NCBI RefSeq assembly: GCF_041381155.1 | Contig: NC_091145.1 | Coordinates: forward strand, 39,943,882 to 40,007,881 | DNA from: Argopecten irradians | Lineage: Eukaryota; Mollusca; Bivalvia; Pectinida; Pectinidae | Direction of reading: 5' to 3' | Length of the DNA stretch: 64,000 nt | Part shown: in pieces, positions 94-58,100 of the stretch | How positions within the stretch are numbered: position 1 is the first letter of the stretch | How the letters are laid out: each line of letters opens with the position of its first letter | The notes under the pieces: generated by a model | Database searches by the model: none | Told to the model about the DNA's origin: nothing | The model's input: the letters and a program-made list of their open reading frames with translations, nothing else | Made by a program: the position numbers and the translations under genes

Positions 94-3000
94 CTCCCTT
101 GATGTGGTCTGACGAAGAAAGAATTCATCATGTGGATCTTGAGGGTCACCATCAGATCGACTTTGAACATGTATAAGATTTGACCCCTGTAGACCCAGCA
201 TGTCCGGGAAAAATAAACTCATAGGTGCTAATATTGTCTCATCTCCAAACTTCATGGCATACTTTATGATATTCTGTTCTGGTTTCCGTATCAATATAGA
301 TCTGTCCTTTACTCCAAAGTTGTCCTATAAGAAAATGAGAAATTTAACTCCAAAGATGTCATATAACAAAATGGGGAATTTAACTCAAAAGAACCCTATA
401 TAGTTTATTCAACTCCCCTTTTTTGTCACAGGTCTGTGTACCAAATATTATCAAAATTTGTCAAGTAGTTTTTAATAGGAGTTTGCCGAATAAAGTTGTG
501 TCTACAGACAGACAGACAGACGGATATACGGGCAACTGGATTTTAGTATACCCCCACCTTAACTTCGTTGCAGGGGGTATACACGGAAATATGTGCCTAC
601 CTGGTCTAGATGGCAGTAGGACTCCTTATATTCCTGAAGTAGAAGTCCATCAATCGTATTTCTGGGGTCGAGTTCCCGCGGACTGAAACCCGACTTCCCA
701 AGTAACCAATGGAAACATCTTGTGATGTCACTTCCTCCGTACTCCATTGTTATTCTGTCAAAAAATCAAAATGAGATTCAATCAAATGATACAAACACAG
801 GAACAAGATAAACAGGAGTACACAATAATCATGTATATTAAAAAGAAGCAGAATTCCTGTCAATAAGTGTTCAATTGATTTTTTTGATAATCTCTTTTAT
901 ACAATGCACATGTATTGGAATATTGAATATACCATTAAAGTTGTATTATTTTTTTTTTAATTTTCACCACCATAAGTTTTGGTTTTATAAGTTTAAGGTC
1001 TTATTAACAGCCAGGGTCATGTAAGGATGTGCCAGGTTTGTTGTTGGAGAAAAGCTGGAGTTCCCGGAGAAAAACCACCAACCAGCGGTCAGTACCTGGC
1101 AACTGCTCCACATGGGATTCAAACCCGCACCCCAGAGGTAAAGGGCTTGTGGTAATATGTTGGGACATCTTAACCAAACTGTCATAACATGGATGCTTGT
1201 ATATGATTGTTCAAATCCATAAAAACATTAAAATACTATTGACATAGTGGTAAATGTCGCATTAAATATCACACGTTTTGAAAGAACTGCAACAGTCTAT
1301 GCCAAGTTTCAAATTTTACGAACAGATCAGAATAGATAGATAGTTCACATGGAAAATCTATCATGTTTAGTGAAAATAAACTACTCAGGTGAAATTTACC
1401 CACTTAAGTCTATGATTTGAGCCATATATCAATCTTTGTAAAATATTGGTAGTAAATCCAGCGACAGCATTTGAGGTATACATCTGTATATGTTATACCT
1501 ACCTTGTATTTTTGTGAGATATGCCATCCTCTACACAACACACACTGGTTTTCTGGTCACCAACATCTACCACACAGGCACTGCCGACCCCGGCACCAAA
1601 CGTAGCGCACACAGACTCCTGTATAAACACAGCAATCAATTAGAACACAGGTACTGTCAACCCCAGCACCAAACGTAGCGCACACAGACTCCTGTATAAA
1701 CACAGCAATCAATTAGAACACAGGTACTGTCAACCCCAGCACCAAACGTAGCACACACAGACTCTTGTATAAACACAGCAATCAATTAGAACACTGGTAC
1801 TGTCAACCCCAGCACCAAACGTAGCACACACGGACTCTTGTATAAACACAGCAATCAATTAGAACACAGGCACTGTCAACCCCAGCACCAAACGTAGCAC
1901 ACATGGACTCCTGTATAAACACAGCAATCAATTAGAACACAGGTACTGTCAACCCCAGCACCAAACGTAGCACACACAGACTCTTGTATAAACACAGCAA
2001 TCAATTAGAACACAGGTACTGTCAACCCCAGCACCAAACGTAGCACACACAGACTCTTGTATCAACACAGCAATCAATTAGAGCACAGGCACTGTCAACC
2101 CCAGCACCAAACGTAGCACACACAGGCTCTTGTATCAACACAGCAATCAATTAGAACACAGGTACTGTCAACCCCAGCACCAAATGTAGCACACACAGAC
2201 TCTTGTATCAACACAGCAATCAATTAGAGCACAGGTACTGTCAACCCCAGCACCAAAAACACAGCAATCAATTAGAACACAGGTACTGTCAACCCGTATA
2301 AACACAGCAATCAATTAGAACACAGGCACTGTCAACCCCAGCACCAAACGTAGCACACACAGACTCCTGTATAAACACAGCAATCAATTACAACACAGGT
2401 ACTGTCAACCCCAGCACCAAACGTAGCACACACAGACTCCTGTATAAACACAGCAATCAATTACAACACAGGTACTGTCAAACCCAGCACCAAACGTAGC
2501 ACACACAGACTCCTGTATAAACACAGCAATCAATTACAACACAGGTACTGTCAAACCCAGCACCAAATGTAGCACACACAGACTCTTGTATAAACACAGC
2601 AATCAATTAGAACACAGGTACTGTCAACCCCAGCACCAAACGTAGCACACATGGACTCCTGTATAAACACAGCAATCAATTAGAACACAGGTACTGTCAA
2701 CCCCAGCACCAAACGTAGCGCACACGGACTCCTGTATAAACACAGCAATCAATTAGAACACAGGTACTGTCAATCCCAGCACCAAACGTAGCGCACACAG
2801 ACTCCTGTATAAACACAGCAATCAATTACGACACAGGCACTGTCAAACCCAGCATCAAATGCGGTGCACACATACTCCTGTATAAACACAGCAATCAATT
2901 ACAACACAGGCACTGTCAAACCCAGCACCACATGTAGCACACACATACTCCTGTATAAACACAGCAATCAATTACAACACAGGCACTGTCAAACCCAGCA

Positions 3001-6000
3001 CCACATGTAGCACACACATACTCCTGTATAAACACAGCAATCAATTACAACACAGGCACTGTCAAACCCAGCACCACATGTAGCGTACACATACTCCTGT
3101 ATAAACACAGCAATCAATTACAACACAGGCACTGTCAAACCCAGCACCACATGTAGTGTACACATACTCCTGTATAAACACAGCAATCAATTACAACACA
3201 GGTACTGTCAAACCCAGCACCAAACGTAGCGCACACGGACTCCTGTATAAACACAGCAATCAATTAGAACACAGGTACTGTCAATCCCAGCACCAAACGT
3301 AGCGCACACGGACTCCTGTATAAACACAGCAATCAATTAGAACACAGGTACTGTCAATCCCAGCACCACATGTAGCGTACACATACTCCTGTATAAAACA
3401 CAGCAATCAATTACAACACAGGCACTGTCAAACCCAGCACCACATGTAGCTTACACAGACTCTTGTATAAACACAGCAATCAATTACAACACAGGCACTG
3501 TCAAACCCAGCACCACATGTAGCTTACACAGACTCTTGTATAAACACAGCAATCAATTACAACACAGGTACTGTCAAACCCAGCACCAAACGTAGCACAC
3601 ACGGACTCCTGTATAAACACAGCAATCAATTAGAACACAGGTACTGTCAAACCCAGCACCAAACATAGCACACATGGACTCCTGTATAAACACAGCAATC
3701 AATTACAACACAGGTACTGTCAAACCCAGCACCACATGTAGCTTACACAGACTCTTGTATAAACACAGCAATCAATTACAACACAGGCACTGTCAAACCC
3801 AGCACCACATGTAGCACACACAGACTCCTGTATAAACACAGCAATCAATTACAACACAGGTACTGTCAAACCCAGCACCAAACGTAGCACACATGGACTC
3901 CTGTATAAACACAGCAATCAATTAGAACACAGGTACTGTCAAACCCAGCACCAAACGTAGCGCACACGGACTCCTGTATAAACACAGCAATCAATTACAA
4001 CACAGGTACTGTCAAACCCAGCACCAAACGTAGCACACACGGACTCCTGTATAAACACAGCAATCAATTAGAACACAGGTACTGTCAACCCCAGCACCAA
4101 ACATAGCGCACACGGACTCCTGTATAAACACAGCAATCAATTAGAACACAGGTACTGTCAACCCCAGCACCAAACGTAGCGCACACAGACTCCTGTATAA
4201 ACACAGCAATCAATTAGAACACAGGCACTGTCAAACCCAGCATCAAATGCGGTGCACACATACTCCTGTATAAACACAGCAATCAATTACGACACAGGCA
4301 CTGTCAATCCCAGCATCAAATGCAGTGCACACATACTCCTGTATAAACACAGCAATCAATTACAACACAGGCACTGTCAAACCCAGCACCACATGTAGCG
4401 TACACAGACTCTTGTATCAACACAGCAATCAATTAGAACACAGGTACTGTCAAACCCAGCACCACATGTAGCTTACACAGACTCTTGTATAAACACAGCA
4501 ATCAATTACAACACAGGCACTGTCAAACCCAGCACCACATGTAGCTTACACAGACTCCTGTATAAACACAGCAATCAATTACAACACAGGCACTGTCAAA
4601 CCCAGCACCAATGTAGTGTACACATACTCCTGTATAAACACAGCAATCAATTACAACACAGGTACTGTCAAACCCAGCACCAAACGTAGCGCACACGGAC
4701 TCCTGTATAAACACAGCAATCAATTAGAACACAGGTACTGTCAATCCCAGCACCAAACGTAGCGCACACGGACTCCTGTATAAACACAGCAATCAATTAG
4801 AACACAGGTACTGTCAATCCCAGCACCACATGTAGCGTACACATACTCCTGTATAAACACAGCAATCAATTACAACACAGGCACTGTCAAACCCAGCACC
4901 ACATGTAGCGTACACATACTCCTGTATAAACACAGCAATCAATTACAACACAGGCACTGTCAAACCCAGCACCACATGTAGTGTACACATACTCCTGTAT
5001 AAACACAGCAATCAATTACAACACAGGTACTGTCAAACCCAGCACCAAACGTAGCGCACACGGACTCCTGTATAAACACAGCAATCAATTAGAACACAGG
5101 TACTGTCAATCCCAGCACCAAACATAGCACACATGGACTCCTGTATAAACACAGCAATCAATTAGAACACAGGTACTGTCAAACCCAGCACCAAACGTAG
5201 CGCACACAGACTCCTGTATAAACACAGCAATCAATTACAACACAGGCACTGTCAAACCCAGCACCACATGTAGCTTACACAGACTCTTGTATCAACACAG
5301 CAATCAATTACAACACAGGTACTGTCAACCCCAGCACCAAACGTAGCACACACGGACTCCTGTATAAACACAGCAATCAATTAGAACACAGGTACTGTCA
5401 AACCCAGCACCAAACATAGCACACACGGACTCTTGTATAAACACAGCAATCAATTAGAACACAGGTACTGTCAAACCCAGCACCAAATGTAGCACACACA
5501 GACTCCTGTATAAACACAGCAATCAATTACAACACAGGTACTGTCAAACCCAGCACCAAACGTAGCGCACACGGACTCCTGTATAAACACAGCAATCAAT
5601 TAGAACACAGGTACTGTCAAACCCAGCACCAAACGTAGCGCACACGGACTCCTGTATAAACACAGCAATCAATTAAACACAGGCACTGTCAAACCCAGCA
5701 CCAAACGTAGCACACACAGACTCCTGTATAAACACAGCAATCAATTATAACACAGGCACTGTCAAACCCAGCACCAAACGTAGCACACACGGACTCCTGT
5801 ATAAACACAGCAATCAATTAGAACACAGGTACTGTCAAACCCAGCACCAAACGTAGCCACACAGACTCCTGTATAAACACAGCAATCAATTACAACACAG
5901 GCACTGTCAAACCCAGCACCACATGTAGCACACACAGACTCCTGTATAAACACAGCAATCAATTACAACACAGGTACTGTCAAACCCAGCACCAAACGTA

Positions 6001-9000
6001 GCACACACGGACTCCTGTATAAACACAGCAATCAATTAGAACACAGGTACTGTCAAACCCAGCACCAAACATAGCACACACGGACTCTTGTATAAACACA
6101 GCAATCAATTAGAACACAGGCACTGTCAAACCCAGCACCAAACGTAGCACACACAGACTCCTGTATAAACACAGCAATCAATTACAAACACAGGCACTGT
6201 CAAACCCAGCACCAAACGTAGCACACAGACTCCTGTATAAACACAGCAATCAATTACAACACAGGTACTGTCAAACCCAGCACCAAACGTAGCCACACAG
6301 GACACGACCTGTATAAACACAGCAATCAATTAGAACACAGGTACTGTCAAACCCAGCACCAAACGTAGCACACACGACTCCTGTATAAACACAGCAATCA
6401 ATTAGAACACAGGTACTGTCAAACCCAGCACCACACGTAGCGCACACAGACTCCTGTATAAACACAGCAATCAATTACAACACAGGTACTGTCAAACCCA
6501 GCACCAAACGTAGCACACATGGACTCCTGTATAAACACAGCAATCAATTACAACACAGGCACTGTCAAACCCAGCACCACACGTAGCACACACAGACTCC
6601 TGTATAAACACAGCAATCAATAACACAGGACTGTCAACCAGCACAAGTAGCACACACAACGCAATCATTATAACACAGGCACTGTCAAACCCAGCACCAA
6701 ACGTAGCACACACAGACTCCTGTATAAACACAGCAATCAATTAGAACACAGGCACTGTCAAACCCAGCACCAAACGTAGCACACACAGACTCCTGTATAA
6801 ACACAGCAATCAATTAGAACACAGGCACTGTCAAACCCAGCACCAAACGTAGCACACACAGACTCCTGTATAAACACAGCAATCAATTACAACACAGGCA
6901 CTGTCAAACCCAGCACCACATGTAGCTTACACAGACTGTTGTATAAACACAGCAATCAATTAGAACACAGGCACTGTCAAACCCAGCACCACACGTAGCG
7001 CACACAGACTCCTGTATAAACACAGCAATCAATTACAACACAGGCACTGTCAAACCCAGCACCAAACGTAGCACACACAGACTCCTGTATAAACACAGCA
7101 ATCAATTAGAACACAGGTACTGTCAAACCCAGCACCAAACGTAGCACACACAGACTCCTGTATAAACACAGCAATCAATTAAACACAGGTACTGTCAACC
7201 CAGCACCAAACGTAGCACACACAGACTCCTGTATAAACACAGCAATCAATTATAACACAGGCACTGTCAAACCCAGCACCAAACGTAGCACACACAGACT
7301 GTTGTATAAACACAGCAATCAATTATAACACAGGCACTGTCAAACCCAGCACCAAACGTAGCGCACACAGACTCCTGTATAAACACAGCAATCAATTATA
7401 ACACAGGCACTGTCAAACCCAGCACCAAACGTAGCACACACACGGACTCCTGTATAAACACAGCAACAATTACAACACAGGTACTGTCAACCCCAGCACC
7501 AAACGTAGCACACACAGACTCCTGTATAAACACAGCAATCAATTACAACACAGGCACTGTCAACCCCAGCACCACATGTAGCACACACAGACTGTTGTAT
7601 AAACACAGCAATCAATTACAACACAGGCACTGTCAAACTCAGCACCACATGTAGCTTACACAGACTGTTGTATAAACACAGCAATCAATTACAACACAGG
7701 CACTGTCAAACCCAGCACCAAACGTAGCACACACAGACTCCTGTATAAACACAGCAATCAATTATAACACAGGCACTGTCAAACCCAGCACCAAACGTAG
7801 CACACACAGACTCCTGTATAAACACAGCAATCAATTACAACACAGGTACTGTCAAACCCAGCACCAAACGTAGCACACACAGACTCCTGTATAAACACAG
7901 CAATCAATTACAACACAGGCACTGTCAAACCCAGCACCACATGTAGCACACACAGACTCCTGTATAAACACAGCAATCAATTATAACACAGGCACTGTCA
8001 AACCCAGCACCAAACGTAGCGCACACGGACTCCTGTATAAACACAGCAATCAATTATAACACAGGCACTGTCAAACCCAGCACCAAACGTAGCACACACA
8101 GACTCCTGTATAAACACAGCAATCAATTATAACACAGGCACTGTCAAACCCAGCACCAAACGTAGCACACACAGACTCCTGTATAAACACAGCAATCAAT
8201 TACAACACAGGTACTGTCAAACCCAGCACCACATGTAGCTTACACAGACTCTTGTATCAACACAGCAATCAATTACAACACAGGCACTGTCAAACCCAGC
8301 ACCAAACGTAGCGCACACAGACTGTTGTATAAACACAGCAATCAATTATAACACAGGCACTGTCAAACCCAGCACCAAACGTAGCACACACAGACTCCTG
8401 TATAAACACAGCAATCAATTATAACACAGGCACTGTCAAACCCAGCACCAAACGTAGCACACACAGACTCCTGTATAAACACAGCAATCAATTACAACAC
8501 AGGTACTGTCAAACCCAGCACCAAACGTAGCTCACACAGACTCCTGTATAAACACAGCAATCAATTACAACACAGGCACTGTCAAACCCAGCACCACACG
8601 TAGCGCACACAGACTCCTGTATAAACACAGCAATCAATTACAACACAGGTACTGTCAAACCCAGCACACCAACTACCACAAGACTCTGTATAAACACAGC
8701 AATCAATTACAACACAGGCACTGTCAAACCCAGCACCAAATGTAGCGCACACGGACTCCTGTATAAACACAGCAATCAATTATAACACAGGTACTGTCAA
8801 ACCCAGCACCAAACGTAGCACACACAGACTCCTGTATAAACACAGCAATCAATTACAACACAGGCACTGTCAAACCCAGCACCAAACGTAGCGCACACAG
8901 ACTGTTGTATAAACACAGCAATCAATTATACACAGGCACTGTCAAACCCAGCACCAAACGTAGCACACACAGACTCCTGTATAAACACAGCAATCAATTA

Positions 9001-12000
9001 CAACACAGGCACTGTCAAACCCAGCACCACATGTAGCTTACACAGACTCTTGTATCAAGACAGCAATACACTTTTCTGGAATCTTCCGTTTTTTTAATTT
9101 AGACAATGTTATACATGCTGTGACTTTGTATAAAAGCATGAAGGTCATTCATTTCAATTAACTATGTTGCCCTACACTTCAGCTTAGATATACTTCTTCT
9201 TTGTTACTGAGATTAAGTAGCCTGTTCCATCCGAAATAAATCCTTATACCTCTATTGAAAGTCAATGTCATTTGAAGAAACTTCTGAATCCTTTCAGGAT
9301 GAGTGGCTTAATACCAAGAAAAGTTTCAAATCAAAATCTAATCTGAGCTTGATATTCTGCTGTCAGATGATAATATAAGGAATTCTTACCTGATGCACGA
9401 CTGCTGCCCCAAAACCTAGTTTCTCCAATAAAACATTCATCATATGTTTCACATGTTGGTGAATGTACACATCTGGTATCAGCAGAAGGGCCTTATACAG
9501 CTGTAAAAGGTGATCATAGCAATAAACAGAGCAGCAAGTGGGAAAGTCATTAACGTAAAGAAATAAGCTACTTTGGTGATTTTGCCTCAGCAAACAAGTT
9601 TGATCAATTTGAACATCAATAAAATCATACTTACTAGATATAACATATATTCAAACCAAAAAACTATAATGCAAACCAATGCTTATCTCCCTTGTTTCAA
9701 TATGCACTCGTTAAGTAAATGTAAGCTATATTTCTTTCCACGACAAAATGATCAGCCAAATTCAGCTTCTTTACAGTCAATATGTTTAAAATTTGAATTT
9801 TTTCTCAAGATTGGAAATGACATGCATATGCAAATAAAGCATGTGCTTTTGAACAACAATAAAAGGTGCAATTAAAGCGTCATTTAGTTTAATTAACTAA
9901 AGGATTCAAGAGCAAATTTAGTGTTAATGTGCTCTTGAATCCTGCATTGATAACTCATACTCAACTTTAATATCACTATCATTATTATAACTACTGAAGC
10001 ATAAAATGGTTATATTGTAAAGGATCCACGGCTCTCTTTACATTACCAGAGCTAAAGTTTACCTTAGTGTATTTAAAGTAAAATAGTCGGGAAAAGGAAG
10101 GTGAAGTGGGTAAAAATAGTGTTAATTTATTCACTTACATGTATTTAATATTTAATTCATTTTGATTTCTAATGAAACAGAAAAATAATATTCCCTGTCA
10201 AAATTGTTGTGTATGCAAAGAAAAGGAAGGCTAATTCCATAAAAATGGTGTTAATTTATCAATTTTAATTTCAAAATCATTTTGCCTGCGAAGAAATTAA
10301 TATACAGTATAGGAATCCTCCGGCTGGCTTTGTTCATGTTGACAGTTCCACCCATCCTTGCTTTCAAAGAGTTACTTTTAAAACTGTCAATTTAGTGCTA
10401 AATTTACACAGGGCTTTTCCATATTTTCAATGGTTAAAACTGGACAATATAAGCAGAACTTTATCATCGTTTTGATATGTAAGGACTTTTGGAAGGCCAA
10501 TGAACGCATTTACCAGTAGACTGGGTTCCTTTGCCTGGCTATTGACTTTTAATAAAATTCCTGTGCAAATCTTTACAAACCTTGAGGTCTTTAAGAGGTA
10601 TATCAAGCAGTGTTTGAATGGCCTGACCCCATATCGTCTCAATATCTGCCATTACTGCTGTCAAGGTTCCCCCGGGACCATTGTGGACGTTCAGGTGTCC
10701 TCCCCGCATAGGCCAGTGTAAGTGATAGTTGTCAGCTGGGTTCAAATATAATGCCTGAAACACGGTGTGACAGAAGCCTCTGTGTTATATAATTTCTTCA
10801 GTTAGTACACACTAATGATATTTATCATTATTGAGAGATTGGGTTAATATATATATATATCATATTATAATTTTTTATGTATAAAATAATCGCAAAACAA
10901 TTTATGCATGCAACTTTGTTACAAAAAATCATTTTTGATAGCCCATGACTGAATGTGAGGAAACTGGAGTCTCCAGAAAAAAGTAAGAAAACCAACAAGA
11001 TCAGGCAGATATAACCTCTGACCTTTCCATGTCTGTGGCAAGAGATCCCCTGCCAGCTATTATTAGCCCAATACATGTACCTCTTCTCCTATAATATAGG
11101 GAGAGCTCTGGTCAATAGACGTCCACTTGTGAGGGCAAATCACCTCTGTCAACTGGCCACGCACATTATTATTGTGGGAATATAGCTGAAAGTGCAAATA
11201 TAGATAAGGCTGTTACATAAGTATACACAGAAAAATCCTCATCTTGTTTACTAATATACGTGTATATATGATATGAAAAGTGCTTCCTCTACTAGAACTA
11301 ATAAATGTCAGAGTTGTTATTATTTTTAAAAATATGAAAAATCCTTTCATCTGATGATCAGACTAAAAAAGCATTGTCTAGCATCACAATGGTTACCAGT
11401 TTTCACCTTTAGAAAATAACGAAAGACCATCAATTTGCAGGTTTGAAGGTAACCATGAAATGATTACCAAAGTTTAGTATCCAAACAATACTTATTAATT
11501 AATAATGATTTACCAGTTTATGTGATGTGGGCTGTCTGTACTCCCCGGTGGAGGTCGGTTTGTAGGCCAGTGCTTCCTCTGCCTGCTTCAGACCCTGCCT
11601 CTGCTGGTGTTTACTCTCTGAGTGCTGCCAAGTTTTAAAATGATAGTTATGAGTTTCAATTACTTTCTCTCGTGTCATTGTCTTTTCAATTATATTTTTC
11701 CCATGCTCTATGTCATGTCCTTGTCTTCTCAATTAATTTTTCTCGTACTCTACATCTTGTGATTGTCTTTTCAATTAATTTTTCTCATGATCATATCAAT
11801 GGTCAATGCATGTCTATGCACTTTAAGTGAAATCCAACCTATACCCTTTATCAGCTTAATTGTCCATTGTTTTCTTTAAGAACATGTGTCTGGCCTTCAA
11901 CATTACACTATCAGCATAATTTTCAAAACTTAGTAATATTGGACAGCTTTGCTATAGTGTAGTAGGACTGAACCTACATCCGCCTCATTTACCAAAGTTC

Positions 12001-13510
12001 TGTTTGGGGTTCCGTATTGACAAAGAAACAGCACATTTAATACATTTAAAGAGTTTACTAACAAATGTTTGTTTGTTTGAGTTTTACGGCCCATCGACAA
12101 CTAAGGTCATTTAGGGCCAAACTACAAGTCAGGCATTAATATCAGGATAAAAGATCAGGGTAAGAAAAGGCAGGTAAGGACTAAAACACAGATTGTAAAC
12201 GTTTATTTGATAAAAAAAAATTTGCATGGGATAAAATAATTTTGGCTAAAACACATGAGAAAACTCATGCACAAAGTTGATGAAATGATGAAATGTTGAG
12301 TTAACAAATATAACAAGGTTCACATGTACAGTGCTCACACACGGCAGGTCAGCCTACAGCTTCGCCTGTATAACTTACACACACAGAAATGACACATTAC
12401 AGGTAAGACACAGGGACAACACACCATCTCAATGATCAGCTAATACATAGCTACTCATGGGAACAAACACACACACGCCCTACACATAGACAACAGGATA
12501 GAAGGAAAGAGTGAAGAATGAGTCTGACCAGCTCGAGGAGCTTCTCCAAATTAATGAAATAGAAATAAAACTGTGCCTTTATAGCTAATCGGCCCAATGA
12601 GAGTACAGTTTAGGAAGAACCAATAGAAACACAGGATAGAGATGAAAGTGAAAGTAGAATTTATATATAGATACGGTAGCCACATACACATGCACGACAA
12701 TACATTATATAATAACTAACATTCTACAATATCACTTTCTCATACACTCACACTTCACCATGGCCATGGTCAACATACAAATATATCAAAATTCCACAAT
12801 AGTACCTGACATTCTGGACGGAGAATCCATGGAGTAGACTGAAGTGGTTTACTGACATCTTTCTTTTTTCGTGCTATACAATGGGGTATTGTAATTGGCA
12901 ATCCATCAGCAGCTCTACCAATCCTTAGGTTGTAAGATCCAGGTTGAATTACAACAATTGTTGCTGTCTGGACAGGCTATAAATCAATTTGAAAACAAAT
13001 GTTTATATGTATGTGATTAAAAAACATTATACATTTTCCACTTGTACAAAATTTGTCCACAGCTTACACGTACAGCGTTTGGTTAAACTATTTTTGAAGT
13101 GTCATAAACCACACTAAAATATCAACAATTACTATTGAATCATGGACTTGTTGTCAGATTTGGCTATATATTTGGCAGGTTTACCCACAGGGCCTCGTTA
13201 CTAATGATGATATATATGAGATAGGTCACGTCTATTTACATACATTACTAATGTATGTGTATACATTACTAATGTGTGTGTAATGTATGTAAATAGACGT
13301 GACCTATCTTATATATATCATCATTAGTAACGAGGCCCTGTGTTTACCGGTGCTACCGGACCTGAAGAAGACTTACAACAGAAGTAAAATATTAACGATA
13401 AAATTGATTGTTCTTCGTGGTAATTTTTATTTTATTTCACAGGTGAATACTACCTCCGATGCAGGATCCGGTGCTTGTGTGTAGAGTCGTTTTGCAGCTG
13501 GGGTTGGCAT
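94..13510 (-). CDS. ACTR8: ACTR8 (actin-related protein 8), nine 5' coding exons; 3' end off window
   Basis: ARP8 is a nuclear actin-fold subunit of the INO80 remodeller, acting with actin and ARP4 in nucleosome and linker-DNA binding (family knowledge). Exons, all with GT-AG borders and matching phase: 13454-13510, 12806-12976, 11514-11624, 11081-11185, 10581-10754, 9390-9500, 1503-1618, 601-754, 94-324. They give about 410 residues without a frameshift; human ARP8 has 624, so roughly the last 200 lie to the left. Diagnostic stretches are [15 protein letters not shown] (exon 2), [18 protein letters not shown] (exon 5), [17 protein letters not shown] (exon 6), [10 protein letters not shown] and [13 protein letters not shown] (exon 7), [14 protein letters not shown] (exon 8), and APMSLFFP and GDPQDPHDE (exon 9). 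The ATG at 13510 is preceded by an in-frame TGA. The N-terminus is shorter than in vertebrates. Intron 6 (1619-9389) is dominated by a minisatellite copied from the exon 7 border. Confidence 0.93.
311..411 (-). repeat. 36-bp tandem repeat built on the ACTR8 exon 9 splice acceptor
   Basis: Units start at 311, 347 and 383, each opening ACTC on the plus strand; the third is degenerate. Read on the minus strand, the unit at 311 is the real junction: a pyrimidine tract, TTATAG, then the first exon bases GACAACTTTGGAG. The middle unit repeats this as TTATAT then GACATCTTTGGAG, so its AG has become AT. The third unit keeps a TATAG. The exon's first 13 bases are therefore duplicated inside the intron together with the acceptor. 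Confidence 0.75.
423..583. mobile_element. Non-autonomous repeat with GTATACCCCC / GGGGGTATAC end
   Basis: Lies in ACTR8 intron 8. It has a short CAGACAGACAGACGG tract followed by a palindromic end, with GTATACCCCC near 547 and GGGGGTATAC near 574 around a TTCGTTG loop. The same layout (GGAC or GACA tract, then a CCCCC/GGGGG hairpin around TTCGTT) recurs at 17930-18016, so these are members of one dispersed family. I cannot assign it to a transposon superfamily. Confidence 0.55.
985..1190 (-). mobile_element. tRNA-derived SINE
   Basis: On the minus strand a tRNA-like head is visible. TGGTTAAGATG resembles a Pol III A box, and GGTTTGAATCC matches the B box consensus GGTTCGAATCC at all but one base. 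It is followed by the body I associate with a widespread bivalve SINE (GTTGCCAGGTACTGACCG, TTTTTCTCCGGGAACTCC, ATGACCCTGGCTGTTAATAA). It sits in ACTR8 intron 7 in the same orientation as the gene. A related tail, in the other orientation, appears near 16560-16610. Confidence 0.7.
1619..9065 (-). repeat. 73-bp minisatellite, about 100 units, each an ACTR8 exon 7 start plus its splice acceptor
   Basis: The spacing between neighbouring units is 73 bp (for example 1694 to 1767), and the array fills most of intron 6. On the minus strand each unit is about 46 bases matching the first 46 of exon 7, then about 27 bases of intron end with a pyrimidine-rich tract and TATACAG. The true exon 7 (1503-1618) is the last unit in transcription order, and it alone continues past CCTGTG into the rest of the exon. 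Most units keep TACAG before GAG. Because 73 is 3n+1, reading from one unit into the next changes frame and meets TGA in the second. A few units are truncated (about 2258-2300, 6618-6665, 8668-8690). The true copy number may differ, since such arrays are often collapsed in assembly. Confidence 0.95.
12061..12165. repeat. Probable dispersed mollusc repeat fragment in ACTR8 intron 2
   Basis: A GTTTGTTTGAGTTTTACGGC run is followed by CAACTAAGGTCATTTAGGGC. I associate this start and layout with dispersed repeats in bivalve introns. Only one copy occurs in the window, so the call rests on recognition, not on an internal match. The rest of intron 2 to 12805 is AT-rich with no exon that I can see. 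Confidence 0.3.
13179..13349. mobile_element. MITE, near-perfect hairpin, probably hAT-like
   Basis: Inverted arms begin ACAGGGCCTCGTTAC at 13187 and end with the complement at 13341. They pair almost completely across about 155 bp, around a centre of two similar TACATTACTAATGT segments. The flanks GTTTACCC (13179-13186) and GTTTACCG (13342-13349) match at 7 of 8 positions, which fits an 8-bp target duplication. A CAGGG-type end and 8-bp duplication suggest hAT; the superfamily is inferred. It lies in ACTR8 intron 1. Confidence 0.75.
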
Positions 13511-13700
13511 CTTATTACAGTTTGTTCCTCATTTGATGAAGTGCATGCTCGTTTTCCTCTACAGTCAACAGTGCACTACGTCATCAAAATATGCGTACAT
13601 ATTTATTCTAAAATTAAATCGGATCTCGGATAGTAAAATAAATTTCCGAACACGTGGGAGCTTGGAAATTTAGGTGATAATATGTGTAAAAAATCTGAAT
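13511..13700 (-). promoter_or_regulatory. Probable ACTR8 proximal promoter
   Basis: This is the sequence just upstream of the ACTR8 start codon. It holds ATGACGTA (13577-13584 read on the minus strand), a CREB/ATF-like site, and a palindromic E-box CACGTG at 13651-13656. There is no TATA box at a useful distance. The function is inferred from position; the transcription start is unknown. Confidence 0.4.
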
Positions 13701-13751
13701 AAATTAACATCATTAAAATAAATGTGTCAAGTATGAATGAAAATACGGTAT

Positions 13752-13932
13752 AATGTACATTGTACGTCCTTATTTTTTTTGTAAAAAAGCTAGCTCCGCT
13801 GTTATTTAAAATACATTTTTTTAATCGGTATTCTTTGCAGGACTTTTTATTTAATTTTTAATGTACATTGTACGTCCTTATTTTTTTTGTAAAAAGCTAG
13901 CTCCGCTGTTATTTAAAATACATTTTTTTAAT
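13752..13932. repeat. Tandem duplication, 108-bp offset
   Basis: A segment starting ATGTACATTGTACGTCC at 13753 is repeated at 13861. It continues through a T-run, GCTAGCTCCGCTG and AAAATACATTTTTTTAATC with almost no change apart from homopolymer length. It lies upstream of ACTR8. The high identity suggests a recent event. Confidence 0.85.
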
Positions 13933-14229
13933 CTTATGATCTTACAGACTTTTTAAAATGTAAAACAACCTACTATCGATCATATCGATGCAAATCCCAT
14001 TTTCAGTGTCAAGTGAAAGAATATTGTATAAACTGTCAGAGATATAGTCTAGATGGTGGGATAAGAAACTGTCGCTATCAACAATCGAATTATTTCCCTT
14101 TACTCAACAAACATTTTTCAACTTTTATGCATTTAGTCCTTTTTTGCGCCTATTTCAGGACACAACTTATATCTCATTATAATAAGATATATGTAGCTAC
14201 CGTTAATTGGAATTTATTAGTCCGCGAAA

Positions 14230-17160: not shown

Positions 17161-17457
17161 TTAACTCAAGGCCAAAAGCGAAGCAGTGTCAAGGGAGACG
17201 TTAATTAAAAAACAAGGACATAGTCATCCAGATCCCCCGCCAATGGAGATATCAAAGCTGAAGTAAGTTTGATTGTGGAGACTTATGTGTATGGGAAAAA
17301 AAACAGGAAAAAGGAAGTTGAGCTAAAGAAGGATGGAGTATAATTCAAGTAGAGCGGGGCTGCAATTGTTGACTCAGGTATACAGCCTTGACATTTATAT
17401 TAGACTATATACACAAAGATGGGTGGAGTTTTGCAAAGTAACATTTACCATTTACCA

Positions 17458-18020
17458 TGATATTTTCAGCAATGTTTCCATGGTAACGGAAAAAGTGCAA
17501 AAAATGAAAACCTTAAAATAGCAAAAGGCACCACTAGACCATATGAACAATGTGTCTATGAAGTTTCATGGAAATATCTCTGCTGGTTTTAGAGTTGTGC
17601 TCCGGAAACGATTCTTACACAAAAATCTGCCATTTTCAGCAATGTTTCCATGGTTACAGAAAAAAAGTACAAAAAGTGAAAACCTTAAAATAGCAAAAGG
17701 CACTATTAGACCATAAGACCAATGTGTCTATGAAGTTTCGTGGAAATATCTCTTCTGATTTTAGAGCTATGCTCCGGAAACGAACCTAATATGATATTTT
17801 CAGCAATGTTTCCATGGGTACGGAAAAATGCAAAAAATGAAAACCTAAAAATAGTAAAAGGCACTTCTAGGCCATAAGACCAATGTGTGTATGAAGTTTC
17901 GTGGAAATATCTCTACTGGTTTTAGAGTTATGCTCCGGAAACCATTCGTACGGACGGACGGACGGACGGACGGAACCCATTTGTATATCCCCCGCCAACT
18001 TCGTTGGGCGGGGGATAAAA
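17458..18020. mobile_element. Dispersed element with three internal about 165-bp repeats and a CCCCC/GGGGG hairpin end
   Basis: TTTTCAGCAATGTTTCCATG recurs near 17462, 17634 and 17798. Each copy is followed by GAAAACCT, a pair of GGCAC and GACCA(A)TGTG(T)-type blocks, GAAGTTTC(G/A)TGGAAATATC and GCTCCGGAAAC. The end is a (GGAC)n tract followed by ATCCCCCGCC and GGCGGGGGAT around TTCGTT. It is the same family as 423-583, with no protein-coding capacity. Confidence 0.65.
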
Positions 18021-18863: not shown

Positions 18864-35175
<16,312 letters not shown>

Positions 35176-43618: not shown

Positions 43619-43619
43619 A

Positions 43620-47970: not shown

Positions 47971-47975
47971 GGGCG

Positions 47976-47983
47976 TATATAAG
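47976..47983 (+). promoter_or_regulatory. TATA box (TATATAAG) of the plus-strand secreted-protein gene
   Basis: TATATAAGAGGG lies about 30 bases before a CT- and CA-rich leader that ends in a GTAAGT donor at 48165. Spacing and donor together support a real core promoter. Other genes here lack a TATA box, which suggests this one is inducible or tissue-specific (inference). Confidence 0.55.
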
Positions 47984-48007
47984 AGGGAGGCAATAAACTT
48001 CGCCACA

Positions 48008-49599
48008 CACCACATACATCTCATCCCCCCTCACATGTACCTCACACCTCCTCACACACACACACCACATGTAACACCTACAATCTGCCATGACAACTGT
48101 GATCCACTGTGAACAGTGACAGATGTGAGCTCCTGGATACAGGAGGATTTCACACAAACACCCATGTAAGTAATCTTTTCGTATTTTATTATTTCAATTT
48201 TTTGCATTAAGCTTTTAATCACCACGTGGTATTTCGTTTGTTTCCTGTATGATGTCAAAATGTTAGTCCAGGAATTTTGTTTAAACATCCTTCTTTTGAT
48301 ATGATCATTTATGGTTTAAGGTTCCATACTAAAAAATGGAATTTAAAACTTCCTCGTGTATACAAGATCTGGATTACTGTCTTTGACACATTACTTCCCG
48401 TAATTTTCTATTCTATAAGGAAGATTTATGAAATATAAACACTCAGCGGTATGAAATTTTGGTCATAATATCTCCATCGGGTTTTGATAGAACAAGGAAA
48501 TGAAACTATTCGATATGCAATTTTTATGTAAATTTGTATTCTATTAGATGTAAGTATCGACATGTTTGTGAAATAGTATGGCGAAACGAGATATTTCATT
48601 ATTTGCACAACCACGTACTGGTGTAATTTAAAATCACGAAAAGATTGAATGTTTATCGCTACCAAAGCATGTCGGCTGCTTCAGGGGTGCAATTTATCAT
48701 CATCTTTCACAGTGACAAATAGAACGAGTTGTAATTGTATGTAAACAATATTTCAATCGCTGCTGGCAATTATCTGTACATAAGTGAACTCGTATTTGTG
48801 CTCTAGTTATATTGTGTGAAGTTTTATGGATCGCCTTCATCATCATTCATGCGACACGTCCTTTTATGCTGTTTTTTTAACATAAAATCTCTATTTAAAG
48901 ATATTTTATAATCTTAAAGAATGTAGTAGAGACTTTATAGATGTAAACTTCAACATACTGAAATTCTGACCTGTTTTTAAACGTTTATGTAAGTACGGAT
49001 AACTTCAATTTATGAATTTGTGTGATATATTAACGTCACTGCTATTGGTGGTAATACCGTGGGTTGAATATTTGATTGCGTTTCCTTCAGTTTTTTGTTA
49101 TTTCTATTCATTATGTTACGAATTTTCGCGATTGAATTTACGAAGACGTCGCCTGGTTTAAATTATATTGTCATTTACCGCCAATAAAATTGGTTGAGCT
49201 CACGTTGTTTATTTATGACTGATATTTATGTACTTGCAGAGCCTGGGGATGAGGGTACTAACACGAAGAGAAAGGATTGACTGACGAGTAGTCGTTATCA
49301 ATAACATCTGTTTATAACGATACAACACATCCTACTTGTTATCGCCAACGTCCACTGACGGCACAACATGTCTCTCTCGCCAGAATGTCATGTTCAGGGC
49401 TTCAATATGAACATCAAGATTCATACGATGTGGCAGTTGATTAGGAGACATCTGTAGTTGGTTGTTCCAGACATTCCTACAAGTACAGTACAGCTACAGA
49501 TGTTTACAATAATCATATTCCAGCAACTACTACTTTTGACTTATGGATTTGTCAGAAGCGGGAATACTTCACATATCAACTTGCCATGTTCAGAGCAAG
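48008..49599 (+). CDS. 5' end of a gene for a secreted or membrane protein (leader exon plus signal-peptide exon); rest not found
   Basis: The first exon (about 48008-48164) is untranslated or carries only short upstream frames, and ends at GTAAGT. Intron 1 ends TTTATGTACTTGCAG, and exon 2 is 49240-49599, ending before GTAATT. In exon 2 the likely start codon is at 49500, giving MFTIIIFQQLLLLTYGFV then RSGNTSHINLPCSEQ before the phase-1 donor: a hydrophobic signal-peptide-like start followed by a polar, cysteine-containing mature N-terminus. An upstream frame of 29 codons (ATG at about 49368, starting MSLSPECHVQGF) precedes it and could damp translation. I could not identify exon 3 between 49.6 kb and the window end, so the family is unknown. 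The minus-strand receptor gene may lie within its introns. Confidence 0.5.
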
Positions 49600-50654
49600 G
49601 TAATTGTATTTGATCTGAGAGCAACTTCATCATCAGCATAAAACAACTGTCTTTTTGTGCCAAAGATGAAATCTTGTTCTACTGAAGGTAGTTTTCCAAG
49701 GCACTGCCTACACATTATTAATATGTGATTATCTATCTTCAACAATGCACAATGGCTGTAATATGTTTTGGAATATTGTATAAAAACTTCATTGTGATTG
49801 ATTCTGTAGCTATACAAAGAACTACGATACAGTACAATGCCTATGTTAGCGGGATAACACTATACAATCGACCAACCGTTAGAGCATGGTCGCGTTGTAG
49901 TTTTAGTAGTCAGATAAGGTCTTTATGCTTACATTCATAATGAGTATGTTAATTTTAAGTGAAAAACAATAAATTACCCAACAATATGAGTGTAGGATGT
50001 GTATATATTTACCAAATTTCCGACATGTATGACACTTTTGATTTACAAAACACGCTTTTTAGTTGAAAACACAAGCAAGAACTTAATAGGTGAACGTGAT
50101 TATACTACAGAACAGTTTACCATTTGTATAGAGAACGGTGTTCCGACATGCATTTTAAATGTTTCCATTTATATCTCTGGTACTTATCTAATGCCCATGC
50201 TAATTGGTGGTGAACCACTCTGTTTCAGTAAATGCCAGAGAGACGAGACAATGATAAAGCATTTCCTTTTAAGAGACATCAGGATAAAATGACACATCAA
50301 ATTGACTTCAAAACGAGTCTACAGGACAGATGTCTGAAAGGATACGACACGCCATAGAGAGACATTATAGGACGTTCTGCCATATTGGAAATGGCGTTAG
50401 AATCAAACAATACGCCATATTGGAAACTACATCCGAATTATTCTGCACGCCTGGAGAAGGGGAAGGTCAATAGAGCAAACTCATTCTTCATATAGTAACA
50501 TTATAAAGACACTATATTAATGGAAAATAGCACATTGAAATAGACACTACTTTTAATGAATAATAACACATTGAAATAGGCACTACTTTTAATCACTACG
50601 CATGCCTGGTTGCACTTATCTGTTTTTGCCTGCATGATTCTATTTTGATTTTGT

Positions 50655-50935
50655 CTAGTTGTAGTAGTAGTATTAGCAATAGTAGATGTAGAAGTAGTAG
50701 TAGCAATATTAGCAGTAGTAGTAGAGTAGATGTAGAAGTAGTAGTAGCAGTAGGAGTTGTATGTGGTGGGTTACCATATCGTGTGTTTAAGTAGGTAGAG
50801 ACGTAGTTTTAGAGCGTTTGTGGTGGTGGGTTTTGTTTTATTATTACAACAGTAGAAGTAGTAGTAGAAATAGTGGTAGTAGTAGAGTAGTATTAGTATT
50901 AATAGTAGTATTGTAGTAGAAGAATTAGTAGTAGA
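50655..50935. repeat. Degenerate (TAG)n / (GTA)n microsatellite
   Basis: There are long interrupted runs of GTAGTAGTAG with AAT and GAT variants, broken near 50760-50840 by about 80 bp of other sequence. A shorter pure TAG tract lies at about 52375-52410. Confidence 0.85.
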
Positions 50936-51116
50936 ATTTTTGTCTGCTTTTATATACAGTATATTCAAGGATTTGCATGGTTTGGTGTAGTATCGCTATA
51001 GCTTCCATTAATATAGTACTAAAAGTAGTGTTTATTTCAATTCAGTTTAAAAAGTACACCCATGTATACTTACACACCTACAATTTATACACTTATTTCA
51101 CACATACAATACTTTA

Positions 51117-51190
51117 AGACTCTTTCATAAGTGGATATGAAGGATAGGGATATTATACCCCTATCCTTCATATCCACTTATGCAAGAGTA
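51117..51190. repeat. Perfect 24-bp inverted repeat (hairpin), imperfectly extended to about 31 bp
   Basis: CATAAGTGGATATGAAGGAT plus AGGG (51126-51149) is exactly complementary to the arm ending at 51182, with a short AT loop. The flanks ACTCTTT and CAAGAGT extend the pairing with one mismatch. It could be the relic of a palindromic MITE. Confidence 0.85.
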
Positions 51191-54100
51191 TTTTTCTCTC
51201 ATACCTCGACGTTTCATTGCAATTTTACTGCTATGATTTCTTACCATTTTGAAATAAATTCGGGGAAAAACGCGACTGTAAGTTAATTCTCCATACATAA
51301 AAATATGCGTGATATTTTCCACGCAAATCCCTTTGTGTGTATCTTTTAAAGCAAATCCCGCCTAGTTTCTAAAAAAATGTTATAATTGTACCTAGCAAAT
51401 AGTGATTCTGTTGATACTGTGACGTCACGAGGCATTATTGCATGGGTAGCCATGCAATACAGCCTCAGGCGACATGAGTGTATTGCCCTGGACCAGCCAG
51501 TATTACACGTGTAGGTATGAGAGAAATTAAATGTATGTTTAGTTTCTTGATTCCCGCAACACAATAAAATACCTCGCGGAAATCAAGTTATGTGCAACAA
51601 TTACACAATTTTGTATGTTAACTTCGGGGAGATGTCATGTTTGACAGTTTTGAAAATTTAAGTTAATATCATAAACACAATATGGTAACACATCAGAGAA
51701 ATAGTAACTTCTTCTATAAATCTTTATCCAGAATATAAAAGTATAATGTGTAACCCATAATACATCATTTTAATTTAAAGCACTGATTTGATCTTTTTGA
51801 CATCAATATTTAATGAAGTAATGTATTTATTCCAATTAAGTACAAAATCAGTTTCGTTAACATTATTTCCTGTTGAATACCCACTGGGATCATTACTTAA
51901 ATTAATACCTCACATTGAGATATTCCGCATTTTTAACATATCACGATGACTACTGTAAACAAACTTCTGCGTGCGATTGATTTTCGCAAATTTCGCGATC
52001 AAAGTAAATTCGCGAACGTTTATCTCCGCGAATTGATATCATTGAATAAAAGAAAATCCGCAAAAATAAATCTCTGAGAACTTATTTTGAAATAGAAATC
52101 GAGAAATGTTCGCTAAAAACAGTTGGTTTACAGTAAATGTTTTAATGGTTTTTGAATCGATATTGCATGCGTTTGAATTGAAACAGTAGTTTAGAAGTAA
52201 TAAGTAGAGTGTGTGACGTAGAATAGTTTACTAACAAAACTTAATACAATTTACTAACAATATATTTTTGATGTGTTTAACTATCCACAGCACTGTATTG
52301 ACAAAGCGGTGACTGTTGGAGCCTGGGTCTATACTTACAATACTTACAATGTACTTACATATCTAATAATTAGTAGTAGCTGTAGTTTAGTAGTAGTAGT
52401 AGTAGTAGTTTTAGAAGTTGCAGTTGTAGTAGATTTAGTGTGGTAGTATATTAGTACACTATACAATTGGGCGGTACAGCGATCGAGTACGTGCTGTATT
52501 TTGTATTCACTGTGACACACTGGAAAATGCAGAAAATCTACCGAGAAAAGTTATCAATTGATTAAAGAACTTTGTTATTTAGGGAAAGATAAAACTTTAT
52601 AGCCTATGGTCACATTGGTCCAGTGTGTATGCATCCGGTTGTACAGTGTACTTTAGGTGAGTGATGCATGCGTTTTTATATCTATTATACTCGTCACGAG
52701 GCGATGTTCTATTGAACTCTAGCCTAAGACAATTCCACAAGGTCATTATTGGTGATGGTTTTAGTGACTGTGATACTGGTTATATTTGCGGCTAAGCGCG
52801 ATGTAAAATGTTTCGGCAAACATAACCATTAACATAGTATGTGTGCTTTTATATTTATTATCTATTTATTAAGCGGTAGTTCTAGTCAATAGTTATTTAC
52901 CTATGTTAATATGCTCAATTAGTTGTTTTTAATATCTAATATATTTGCTTCTGTAGTATTTTTCATTGTACAGTAATTGAAGATCTTTGATTTTAGTTGA
53001 TTAGTGTCGTAAATTACTCTTGGTCAGTCACCATTCACACCTGGATTTTGTATTTGGAGAAAAGGAAAATTAAGTTTAAATATCATTGATGGAATTGTAG
53101 TTCAAAGCCGAACTATTATTTAAATGAACTTTACCTTGTAAATTTGTTCTTTATTTTTTGTCTTAAATACACATTGTTTTCCCAACTCCCATTGGTTTAC
53201 TTCCTTGATATAAAATGTAGATCGCATTATAACTATATAAAATGCAAAGAATTGAAACCAGCAGATGTGATCTGATCTTGGTGCTCTAGATGTAAATTAA
53301 GGCCGTTCCCACGACAGCAGTTTTCACTGTTCACATGCCAGAGGAGTTAACGACCAAAGTCATTTGTCAATTAAAGCAGTTACATTTAGTTACCGTAGCT
53401 ATATATATGTTGATTTATAGTTCGTAGACTTAATTATGTGTCATGTGTTTAGTATTTACATATCCAAGCTAGTTAGGTGTTATAAGTTTAAAATACATAT
53501 CCAAGTTAGACTATTTAATTATGTTGGTTATTGCTTTGTAGAACAAATAAAAAGCTTTAGAGTCTCTCGTTTTGTTTGTTATATGTCCTATTTGTAAGAT
53601 AAGATAGTGCATGAACACTGTTACCAATACAAGAGTTGTAGTTACATGGGAGTTAGGAAATACTCGAGGTGAATGTATAGCACTAGACAGATTTCAACAA
53701 GTTTGACATAGGGCGTATTCTGCATTGGAAAATCCCAAAATGTTTGTTATTATCTAAATTTATAGTGGGGCCTTTATTTCAATTTTACTTATCAAGACAC
53801 ACACAGAGATAAGTATCTGTTAGGAAACAATTATAGTTTGGAATTGTATAACTTACCCTAACCACAATCCAACAACTCTCACTAAATATTGGTATCCGTG
53901 AGACGTTGACGTTCAAAGCAATTTAAAATACTATTTAAAACTAAAAATTCAATAAAATTTTAACAATTAATTAAGGAATTTAAAAAAAAATCAAAGATAT
54001 CATATTGACCTTAATGGCAATAGATAATAAATTTTACGATAAAAGCTAATGTAACTCGCCAAATCATTAAACCAGGAAACTAATTAAGAGTAATTAAATA

Positions 54101-55082
54101 GGTCACAATACAGGCCGAAATGTATTGTATACATAAGTTGGATATAATAATAAAGTTGGAAAAGGGAAAGATAATTCGGTTTTCTGAAAGGCACAAATAA
54201 TAGAACAAGCATGGTGATTCCAATGATTTATTGTGTATGTGTGTGTGTTTAGATGATTCTGATGTAAAGCACCACAAACCTGTATACAAAACGGTCATTA
54301 AATGTAAAGATGAAGTAACCAAATTAATACCGAGATATTCAAGAATGACAGATGCATACATATTTACAGGACAAATATTGAACTGAGTACACGGCTGTTT
54401 AAAGTCAAATACTACAAGTATATAGGAAACACATTATTTAATATTGGCTCCAAACGTATAAGACAAAACGACGGAAAAGACAGGCACACAACGTAAACAC
54501 CTATGGTATACATTCAGCATCCATTCTACTCTGAACACTCCCACATAATAGTTTATAAATTATAGTCACTTTTTTCTGTAAACGTTACATATGAATTAAC
54601 TACGGTAATGAAACAGTGTAAATGAACATGTATTAGCACCGGCATCATAACATTAATATAAACCACTGGAGATAAACAGCATGCATCATCGTACTACACA
54701 ATGAAAATAAATGTAACTTAGCTACTAAAATAATGTACACATGAACGTATGTATTATGAGCAATATGCTTTTTCGATGTTAATTGCAAATTGTTCATTGC
54801 AAAAAGCGTTGGACCCCGAACATGTAAAATGCTTGAGATCGCTATATGATAACCTCGACTGTGAAATACAAAGCATCATAGCTGCTGTTATTAAGAAAAG
54901 AGTTATCAAATGATAAATAATGTACTTTTATGTTACCCAATAAAGCGCTGCCATACATATGTATTTCAGAATCCAAATAGAACATAAATCACATTTATAC
55001 AATAATTTTGACATCATACGGTACGTTCAGTCCTCAATGCTAGCATGTTTTCGTTCAGATCAGAATGTTTTTTGTGAATGTA

Positions 55083-55088
55083 TTTATT
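55083..55088 (-). terminator. AATAAA polyadenylation signal of the CUB-LDLa receptor gene
   Basis: TTTATT on the plus strand reads AATAAA on the minus strand. It lies about 80 bases after the receptor's stop codon (55170-55172). Confidence 0.5.
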
Positions 55089-55169
55089 TGACACACTCCG
55101 TCAAACATGTTAAAATCTGCTTGGCTTGCTATTGTGTTATGCATTGGTATCCTAAATATATAACATTCG

Positions 55170-58100
55170 TCACACACCGTTCCCATTTACATCGTCCACT
55201 GTGTCTACGTACTCGATATCATCACAGTTCATCAGACATATCCGATTGGAGTAGTCAGGAGTTCTCTCCCCTGATTTTGCGTTATCTAGGCTACCTTTAC
55301 CACCTGTGATCTGGAAGTCCGATGTAACAGATATCAAGTCCTCCTCTAGATTACTACTTCCACTTTCTTGTGAACTTTCCTCTGCATACGTCCCAGAATC
55401 TTCCTGACCGGAAGAACTAGACCGAGAACACTCATCGGATTTCGAATCGCTGTCATCTGAGATATGTATCAATGGTTCGTTGTCAGGAGAGAGGTTTTCT
55501 TGTTGGCAAGGAATAACATTTTCATTGTCATTTAATCTATCCTGTTCAGGTGCAGCTATACATACCATTTCGGTTTGGCACTCCTCTGGATTTTCTTTAT
55601 TATCATTATCACAAGGACGTTCGATACACACCACTGTTACCCTGTTCAATGACCTGACAGAATACGGCGACCCTTGGAGGTCTGTCTGGGGGAGAGTGGA
55701 CACCACATCGTAAGCTGGGGGAGGTTCCTCACTAACCTCCTTCCTTACAACATCCTCATAGGTGGGCGGGGCATACAGTTCAGTAACGCCCAAAGTGTCG
55801 ATATTGTTTCCCAGTTCCCATTCCCCATTGGCTTTCCGCTTGGCAAACATTTGGACGCTCTGTTGTCGAATATAACTGAAAACGAAAGAGGAAAATTTCA
55901 AGCAAAGCAAATTTTACACAAAAACGCACACTATAGCAAACGGTTTAAAAATAGCATTACTGTCGTCTAAAATACCAAAATCTTGATCTAGGTTATATGT
56001 ATTTCAGTAAAAATTATTTTGATAACTCTATTTAAAAAAATGTATAATTTCGTGGGGAAATATACTGGACCGTTATATATCTTATCTAGATCACTATCAC
56101 AAGGTTACAGAAAAACACTTTCAAAATTACTTGACCAACGATTGATACTTAAACGGGAACAAGCATTTTATACTATCACACGTTGCTCCTATCTATACAG
56201 TGAGTGACCACAGTCAGACCTACCTCCTTCTGTTGTATTTCTTAAGGACACAGAAGACAACGACGATGACAAGTAGGAACACAGTGATGGCCACTCCGGC
56301 AGCTACAACAGCTGTGATGGTCGCTTCTGTCAGGGTAGAAAGAAGTATTCTTAGAATAAACACAGGAGTTCATTAATCATGTCTATTAATCTTTCGGGGA
56401 GAGCCCAATACGGTGATATATTACACACAAACTGACATACCATCACATTAATCATTATTTTGAATGTTGCAAATTAAGTATGTTGAGGAGAAATTCAATA
56501 AATGGGTTAACTCTCTTTTCTTATAGATTCGTTTTCAAGTCATTATTTTCAAGTTTTATGAAAATAAAACAATAAGGTAAACACTAAAACATATAGTACA
56601 TTGATAGTATTATTGACACTAACCTGCCCCTTTCCAGTCCATGTCCACCAATAGGTGACAGATGTTCTCGTCAGTAAGTTCCCCGTCCCCTTTATTGATA
56701 GTATTATTGACACTAACCTGCCCCTTTCCAGTCCGTGTCCACCAATAGGTGACAGATGTTCTCATCAGTAAGGTCCCCGTCCCCTTTGTTGATAGTATTA
56801 TTGACACTTACCTGCCCCTTTCCAGTCCGTGTCCACCAATAGGTGACAGATGTTCTCGTCAGTAAGTTCCCCGTCCCCTTTATTGATAGTATTATTGACA
56901 CTAACCTGCCCCTTTCCAGTCCGTGTCCACCAATAGGTGACAGATGTTCTCGTCAGTAAGTTCCCCGTCCCCTTTATTGATAGTATTATTGACACTAACC
57001 TGCCCCTTTCCAGTCCGTGTCCACCAATAGGTAACAGGTGTTCTCGTCAGTAAGTTCCCCATCCCTTTATTAATAGTATTATTGATACTAACCTGCCCCT
57101 TTCCAGTCCGTGTCCACCAATAGGTGACAGGTGTTCTCGTCAGTAAGGTCCCCGTCCCCTTTATTGATAGTATTATTGATACTAACCTGCCCCTTTCCAG
57201 TCCGTGTCCACCAATAGATGACAGGTGTTCTCGTCAGTAAGGTCCCCGTCCCCTTTGTTGATAGTATTATTGACACTAACCTGCCCCTTTCCAGTCCATG
57301 TCCACCAATAGGTGACAGGTGTTCTCGTCAGTAAGTTCCCCGTCCCCTTTATTGATAGTATTATTGACACTAACCTGCCCCTTTCCAGTCCGTGTCCACC
57401 AATAGGTGACAGATGTTCTCGTCAGTAAGGTCCCCGTCCCCTTTGTTGATAGTATTATTGACACTAACCTGCCCCTTTCCAGTCCGTGTCCACCAATAGA
57501 TGACAGTTGTTCTCGTCAGTAAGGTCTCCGTCCCCTTTATTGATAGTATTATTGACACTAACCTTCCCCTTTCCAGTCCGTGTCCACAGGTGTTCTCGTC
57601 AGTAAGGTCCCCGTCCTCTTTATTGATAGTATTATTGACACTAACCTGCCCCTTTCCAGTCCGTGTCCACCAATAGGTGACAGGTGTTCTCGTCAGTAAG
57701 GTCACCATCCCCACAGTTGTACTCGGTATCACACATCACAGACAGTGGTACACAGATCTGGGTCCGTCCACACAGATGGTGTAGCCGGTCACAGTCCTCG
57801 CTTTGTACGTCTGCACAGGAAGATAGGAAAAACCTCTTTTATTTTCATGTTCAGACATAGTAGTATTTTGTAGGTAGCAATTTGCAAATATCGCATTTGA
57901 AAAGAATTATGTACTAAATATATGTTATATAATGTATGAGTATATTTACTGGCTGGTCTATTGACATGAAAACCTCAACCTGTCTATAAAGGCAACCTGT
58001 CCATAGTGACCGTTTTTCTGTCTTCAATTAAGTTGTCGTTATATACAGGTTTGATTGTATATCATATGAGAATGTAGTTATATATATGACAGATGGTATA

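Follow-up and report, generated by a model that had tools for sequence, protein, structure and literature searches.

Tandem arrays at exon borders of three genes

We analyzed tandem arrays that lie at exon borders in a stretch of 64,000 nucleotides (nt) from the bivalve Argopecten irradians (NC_091145.1, positions 39,943,882 to 40,007,881; hereafter, the window), which is located on contig 12 (C12) of the 845.8-Mb genome. The window contains exons of three genes, which were positioned from peptide matches and then checked for AG/GT splice signals. Sequence matches make the identity of ACTR8 (E=4.9e-135) and CFAP100 (E=3.2e-122) certain; the third gene, LDLa-receptor-like, is typed weakly, its LDLa domain scoring 20.6 bits against a Pfam cut-off of 24.1. 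Our list for the window holds 56 splice sites, compared with about 53 claimed in a first-pass annotation of the same DNA. In their initial positions two sites did not pass the AG/GT check, and one of these, a donor in the CFAP100 5' untranslated region, is non-canonical as placed and stayed unconfirmed.

Five arrays in the three genes, reported in the first-pass annotation, are confirmed at genuine exon edges, with small shifts in coordinates after analysis with Tandem Repeats Finder (TRF) and reading by eye. Four are recovered by TRF, and array C is too diverged for the program to detect. The arrays and the exons they touch, with the basis of each placement, are as follows.

311..411, minus strand: array A, 36-bp unit in 2.3 copies plus a decayed extra copy, ACTR8 acceptor (TRF 311-392 and sequence)
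94..324, minus strand: ACTR8 exon, acceptor inside array A (PDB match 4fo0, AG/GT, frame)
1568..9067, minus strand: array B, 73-bp unit in about 105 copies, straddles an ACTR8 acceptor (TRF, start 1568 or 1572)
1503..1618, minus strand: ACTR8 exon, acceptor inside array B (PDB match, AG/GT, frame)
22674..24158, minus strand: array D, 37-bp unit in 40 copies, stops exactly at a CFAP100 donor (TRF)
24159..24255, minus strand: CFAP100 exon, donor adjoining array D (homology, AG/GT, frame)
~31328..31537, minus strand: array C, ~42-nt unit in five diverged copies, straddles a CFAP100 donor (read by eye)
31525..31682, minus strand: CFAP100 exon, donor inside array C (homology, AG/GT, frame)
56600..57712, minus strand: array E, 94-bp unit in 12 copies, straddles a donor of the receptor-like gene (TRF)
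57646..57810, minus strand: receptor exon with the weak LDLa domain, donor inside array E (Pfam, AG/GT, frame)

Exon bases and the splice site are copied together in arrays A, B, C, and E, as the earlier annotation had it. Its further statement, that every array ends at an exon border, describes array D but not the other four, in which the border falls within the first unit. The array A unit comprises 14 nt of exon and 22 nt of intron (exon edge 324), that of array B about 47 and 26 nt (edge 1618), and that of array E 67 and 27 nt (edge 57646); the array C unit includes about 13 exon nt (edge 31525). Array D copies zero exon bases (edge 24159). It was considered as a junction copy and ruled out, since its unit shares no base with the exon that it adjoins. 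A 33-nt relative (88%) of its unit lies at 20466-20498, in the neighbouring CFAP100 intron.

Array B has 105 unit starts, 84 of the 104 spacings between them being exactly 73 nt, and in bins of ten its units match the gene-side unit at 80-93% identity with no clear gradient. Indel-rich copies of its unit also occur in another ACTR8 intron (L009, -3214 to -1037; flank coordinates here and below are relative to the window), where they resemble either noisy, unpolished sequence or an array copied in cis. Throughout the window the gene-side sites join the exons into open frames (nine exons of ACTR8, fifteen of CFAP100, and four of the receptor-like gene).

Recurrence and placement of straddling arrays

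Flanks of 200 kb and 50 kb were sampled around the window to give a joined 314 kb, in which 131 tandem arrays occupy 79 kb (25%) and 73 exons with 135 borders were placed in eleven genes. Among the flank genes ABCA3 is identified by sequence match (E=0), and a Death-domain-like gene is weak, with one exon at 17.4 bits against a cut-off of 22.6. Six others we take to be THNSL1, KLHDC10, ZC3HC1, UBE2H, LLPH, and UBL4A, from their Pfam domains. Predicted exons at -75914, -48049, -20637, and -18859 have low-complexity translations and were not used as evidence.

A second sample consists of 38 kinesin-domain exons on 14 contigs, each with 210 bp on either side of the match. These places are a shuffled draw from 79 of 130, the 79 having been chosen before any sequence was inspected. 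Four (L043, L065, L066, and L069) are without a predicted exon and are excluded from the 68 kinesin borders; at L047 and L064 the exon scorer ran into the array, and the exon ends there were placed manually once the sequence had been read. Arrays that hold exon bases together with the splice site, here termed straddling, were found in both samples.

-60544: THNSL1, acceptor
-52822: THNSL1, acceptor
111187: KLHDC10, acceptor
-114691: ABCA3, donor (24-bp unit)
-83587: Death-domain-like gene, donor
L034: kinesin, donor
L045: kinesin, acceptor
L047: kinesin, donor
L064: kinesin, donor

The kinesin loci L034 and L045 are about 5 kb apart and probably belong to one gene. At L047 the donor array (336-564, 33-bp unit) is open in frame, and splicing from donors farther along would insert an 11-residue repeat into the kinesin; L064 carries a 21-bp in-frame tandem duplication within the exon itself (293-343). 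In total, 13 straddling arrays occur at 203 borders (~6%), with 9 of 135 on the contig, array C included, and 4 of 68 in the kinesin sample. Four come from the window, five from the flanks, and four from the kinesin loci, and they divide into six acceptors and seven donors. Array D, which only adjoins its border, is not among them.

If splice junctions nucleated tandem duplication, as the first-pass annotation suggested, array edges should peak at zero distance from the border. We walked outward from 70 nt inside the exon and scored the first array edge met (124 contig borders). On the contig 7 edges fall in 8.4 kb of exon and 5, 5, and 9 in 6.9, 6.6, and 11.5 kb of intron at 0-60, 60-120, and 120-240 nt, which corresponds to 0.83 per kb in exon and 0.73, 0.75, 0.78, and, at 240-480 nt, 0.50 per kb in intron. 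The kinesin sample gives 4 edges in 4.6 kb of exon, followed by 3 in 3.7 kb and 2 in 3.6 kb of intron, with densities of 0.86 per kb in exon and 0.80, 0.56, and 0.23 in intron (0-60, 60-120, and 120-200 nt). Pooled, the density is 0.84 per kb in exon versus 0.72 in the first 120 nt of intron (P=0.69), and the predicted peak is absent. A flat density is what would be expected if founders that cross a border were simply tolerated. Measured from the exon end, the border lies anywhere from 16% to 71% of the way through the unit, so there is no fixed breakpoint at the junction. Triggering of the duplications by splice junctions is neither shown nor excluded.

Straddlers were also counted against a null in which each intronic array starts as one randomly placed unit and border-crossing units are tolerated. 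Such a test may show an excess even where edges are flat, because units that cross into the exon must exceed their exonic part. The idea that chance would rarely produce the pattern fares poorly, as random founder placement alone gives 1.65 straddlers among the 12 intronic arrays of the window (median intron 594 nt), where 4 are seen (P=0.065), or 5 if the adjoining array D is counted (P=0.014). The window was picked for the pattern, however, and its own test therefore cannot settle the role of chance. Across the contig, 39 TRF arrays in 62 introns include 7 straddlers versus 3.96 expected (P=0.085); adding array C, otherwise left out of this contig count, gives 8 versus 4.04 (P=0.036). The THNSL1 acceptor at -60544 was left out of these tests because no upstream exon was found. 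The flanks alone give 4 versus 2.33 (P=0.19), or 3 versus 0.92 (P=0.058) for units of at least 20 bp and below 140 bp, and introns shorter than 6 kb across the whole contig give 6 versus 4.15 (P=0.22). A modest excess of straddlers over founder placement is likely, and its size depends on the choice of null.

Origin of the arrays

We interpret the straddling arrays as mirage minisatellites, chance duplications spanning an exon border that were subsequently filtered by purifying selection, and we assign this explanation a probability of about 0.7. The steps we infer are a founder duplication, a choice made in splicing, and selection. A tandem duplication several tens of bases long would span an exon edge by chance and then expand as any minisatellite does. 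The extra copies would become intron because the spliceosome would still use the gene-side junction, pairing it with its partner site by exon definition. Purifying selection would retain a junction-spanning duplication only when the unit holds the splice signal in full, leaving the gene-side junction with a signal of its own.

The contents of the units bear on the last step. Every one of the 13 straddlers has at least 17 nt of intron per unit, and acceptor units have at least 22 nt (P=0.001 against uniform splits), while the exon part can be as small as 4 nt and as large as 67 nt and shows no lower limit (P=0.43; 45 nt in L064). An intron floor fits selection because only a unit that takes in the intron end leaves the gene-side acceptor with a copy of that end. 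With frames kept in the genes of the window and this minimum found in 13 of 13 units, the filter, which lets through only duplications that bring the entire splice signal with them, is supported, not proven; selection that tolerates only junction-preserving duplications had already been put forward in the first-pass annotation. The rule it supplies is testable: a surviving unit has to contain a complete splice signal.

An alternative, which we consider unlikely, is that exon edges are hot spots of minisatellite birth, with R-loops, replication pausing, or recombination close to exons as possible causes. The nulls restricted to locus-private arrays speak for it. Seven of the 39 contig arrays belong to dispersed families, six of them with units of 145-325 bp that we presume to be transposon-borne, and none of the seven straddles a border; they count in the all-array null and are left out of the locus-private one. 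The remaining 32 arrays include 7 straddlers versus 2.20 expected (P=0.0048). Outside the window, where straddlers occupy 4 borders out of 70 in the flanks and 4 out of 68 at the kinesin exons, the 138 borders yield 8 versus 2.45 (P=0.0038), the expectation being based on the rate for the entire contig, to which the window contributes. Tolerance by itself would not lead to such an excess, and these two results therefore weigh against the mirage explanation. So do points of procedure and scoring: the intron-content test was devised post hoc, after inspection of the data; splicing was read from genomic sequence alone; the rankings of flank exons described below are circular because the same scorer placed those exon borders; and in ABCA3 the scorer favours a donor inside the array, whose 24-bp unit is open in frame.

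Against hot spots stand the failure of array edges to peak at the border (pooled P=0.69) and the wide range of border positions within the unit. The excess also shrinks when all arrays enter the null, to 7 versus 3.96 on the contig and 8 versus 4.41 outside the window (P=0.079), and to 6 versus 4.15 in the introns below 6 kb. We also consider it unlikely that true hot spots exist at about threefold over other intron positions, with some 6% of splice borders carrying junction-copying arrays. If they did, the genome would hold a lasting stock of duplicated splice sites from which new introns and alternative splicing could arise.

It is improbable that the arrays are functional, with copies serving as alternative splice sites or as introns or repeat-bearing exons in the making. 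This would accommodate the open in-frame units of ABCA3 (24 bp) and kinesin L047 (33 bp), and full-strength decoys are many, with 79 of the 310 AGs in array B within 3 bits of the true ACTR8 acceptor and comparable decoys in 8 of the 10 arrays examined. Tandem repeats at human exon-intron boundaries can also create alternative introns (PMC2812944). The nearest comparable decoys in array B and the receptor array nevertheless shift the frame, each 51-nt insertion at THNSL1 -52822 brings a stop, and arrays A and D have no decoy within 3 bits of the true site. In keeping with the mirage explanation, the true exon in array B scores 34.5 versus 20.3 for the best decoy exon, and the array-bearing junction belongs to the top-scoring exon at 9 of 10 loci. 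These rankings are weak evidence, as the scorer that placed the flank exons was trained on the window exons, 21 of 24 internal exons being exact on its own training set.

Assembly artefact is the least probable account, for although array B has irregular indel-rich stretches (e.g., ~2260-2300, 6613-6714, and 8650-8690) and a B-like one lies in another ACTR8 intron (-1516 to -1037), the 13 straddlers are spread over about ten genes and four chromosomes (C12, C9, C6, and C5), their copies are diverged, and the flanking exons are intact. The indel-rich stretches do make the array copy numbers unreliable.

Known relatives and other repeats

The straddling arrays are a new instance of a structure already described in lancelets. 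PMC3087553 and PMC3902484 place mirages in lancelet Adh3, the globins BflGb6 and BflGb9, and PGBD5, and call the genomic mechanism unclear; splicing there was undisturbed by RT-PCR (PMC3087553). Unit lengths overlap, at 10-72 and ~150-160 bp in lancelets and 24-110 bp here, and both 5' and 3' boundaries are affected, as in our six acceptors and seven donors. Many lancelet copies keep AG/GT signals, as do the comparable sites in 8 of our 10 arrays. Lancelet mirages show length instability between haplotypes or cells, and their copies are homogenised within a cluster with the boundary copies excluded; here one assembly was read. Regular splicing was checked in lancelets by RT-PCR; the observation here is of frames kept by the gene-side junctions. 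The present case differs further in its bivalve genome, in a sample of borders (13 of 203) in place of gene-by-gene description, and in one array of ~105 units. No mollusc mirage case was found among the matches listed in searches of openly licensed PMC papers. The original paper on lancelet mirages is reportedly Canestro 2002.

In human segmental duplications, recent paralogs have introns or alternative exons that formed from exon-derived repeat copies, as PMC2812944 describes. The likeness lies in tandem repeats at exon-intron boundaries; unlike the human case, the copies here are in existing introns, and the genes are not known to have duplicated recently. Gain of introns through tandem duplication with AGGT ends is said to have been treated by Rogers 1989, Zhuo 2007, and Gao and Lynch 2009, and in PMC4974935. 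Such gain likewise involves tandem duplication that includes splice-site sequence, but our arrays add length to introns that the present gene model already has. If the rate of ~6% holds genome-wide, mirages would amount to an extensive experiment of nature on the spliceosome's choice among near-identical junctions, and would show how frequently new introns come out of such duplications.

Several other repeats lie in or near these genes. Two arrays of about 10 kb occupy introns in the flanks, one of 169 copies of a 61-bp unit preceding the final ACTR8 exon, whose acceptor is 69 nt away (-16284 to -5999, L010-L009), and one of 546 copies of a 19-bp unit in an ABCA3 intron (-107158 to -96789, L029-L018). 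An ACTR8 intron in the window contains a dispersed element (972-1176) that recurs at no fewer than 39 further sites with 90-93% identity, counted within the 40 best-scoring candidates, and the first ACTR8 intron holds a near-perfect inverted repeat (13186-13342) with 63-nt arms that are 98% complementary and 31 nt apart. Dispersed arrays with units of ~155-172 bp occur at 17457-17974 and 21420-21888 in the window, and also at -126297, -124485, and -1007, one of them followed by an ACGG run; we take them to resemble the tandem cores of bivalve Helitron-like elements.

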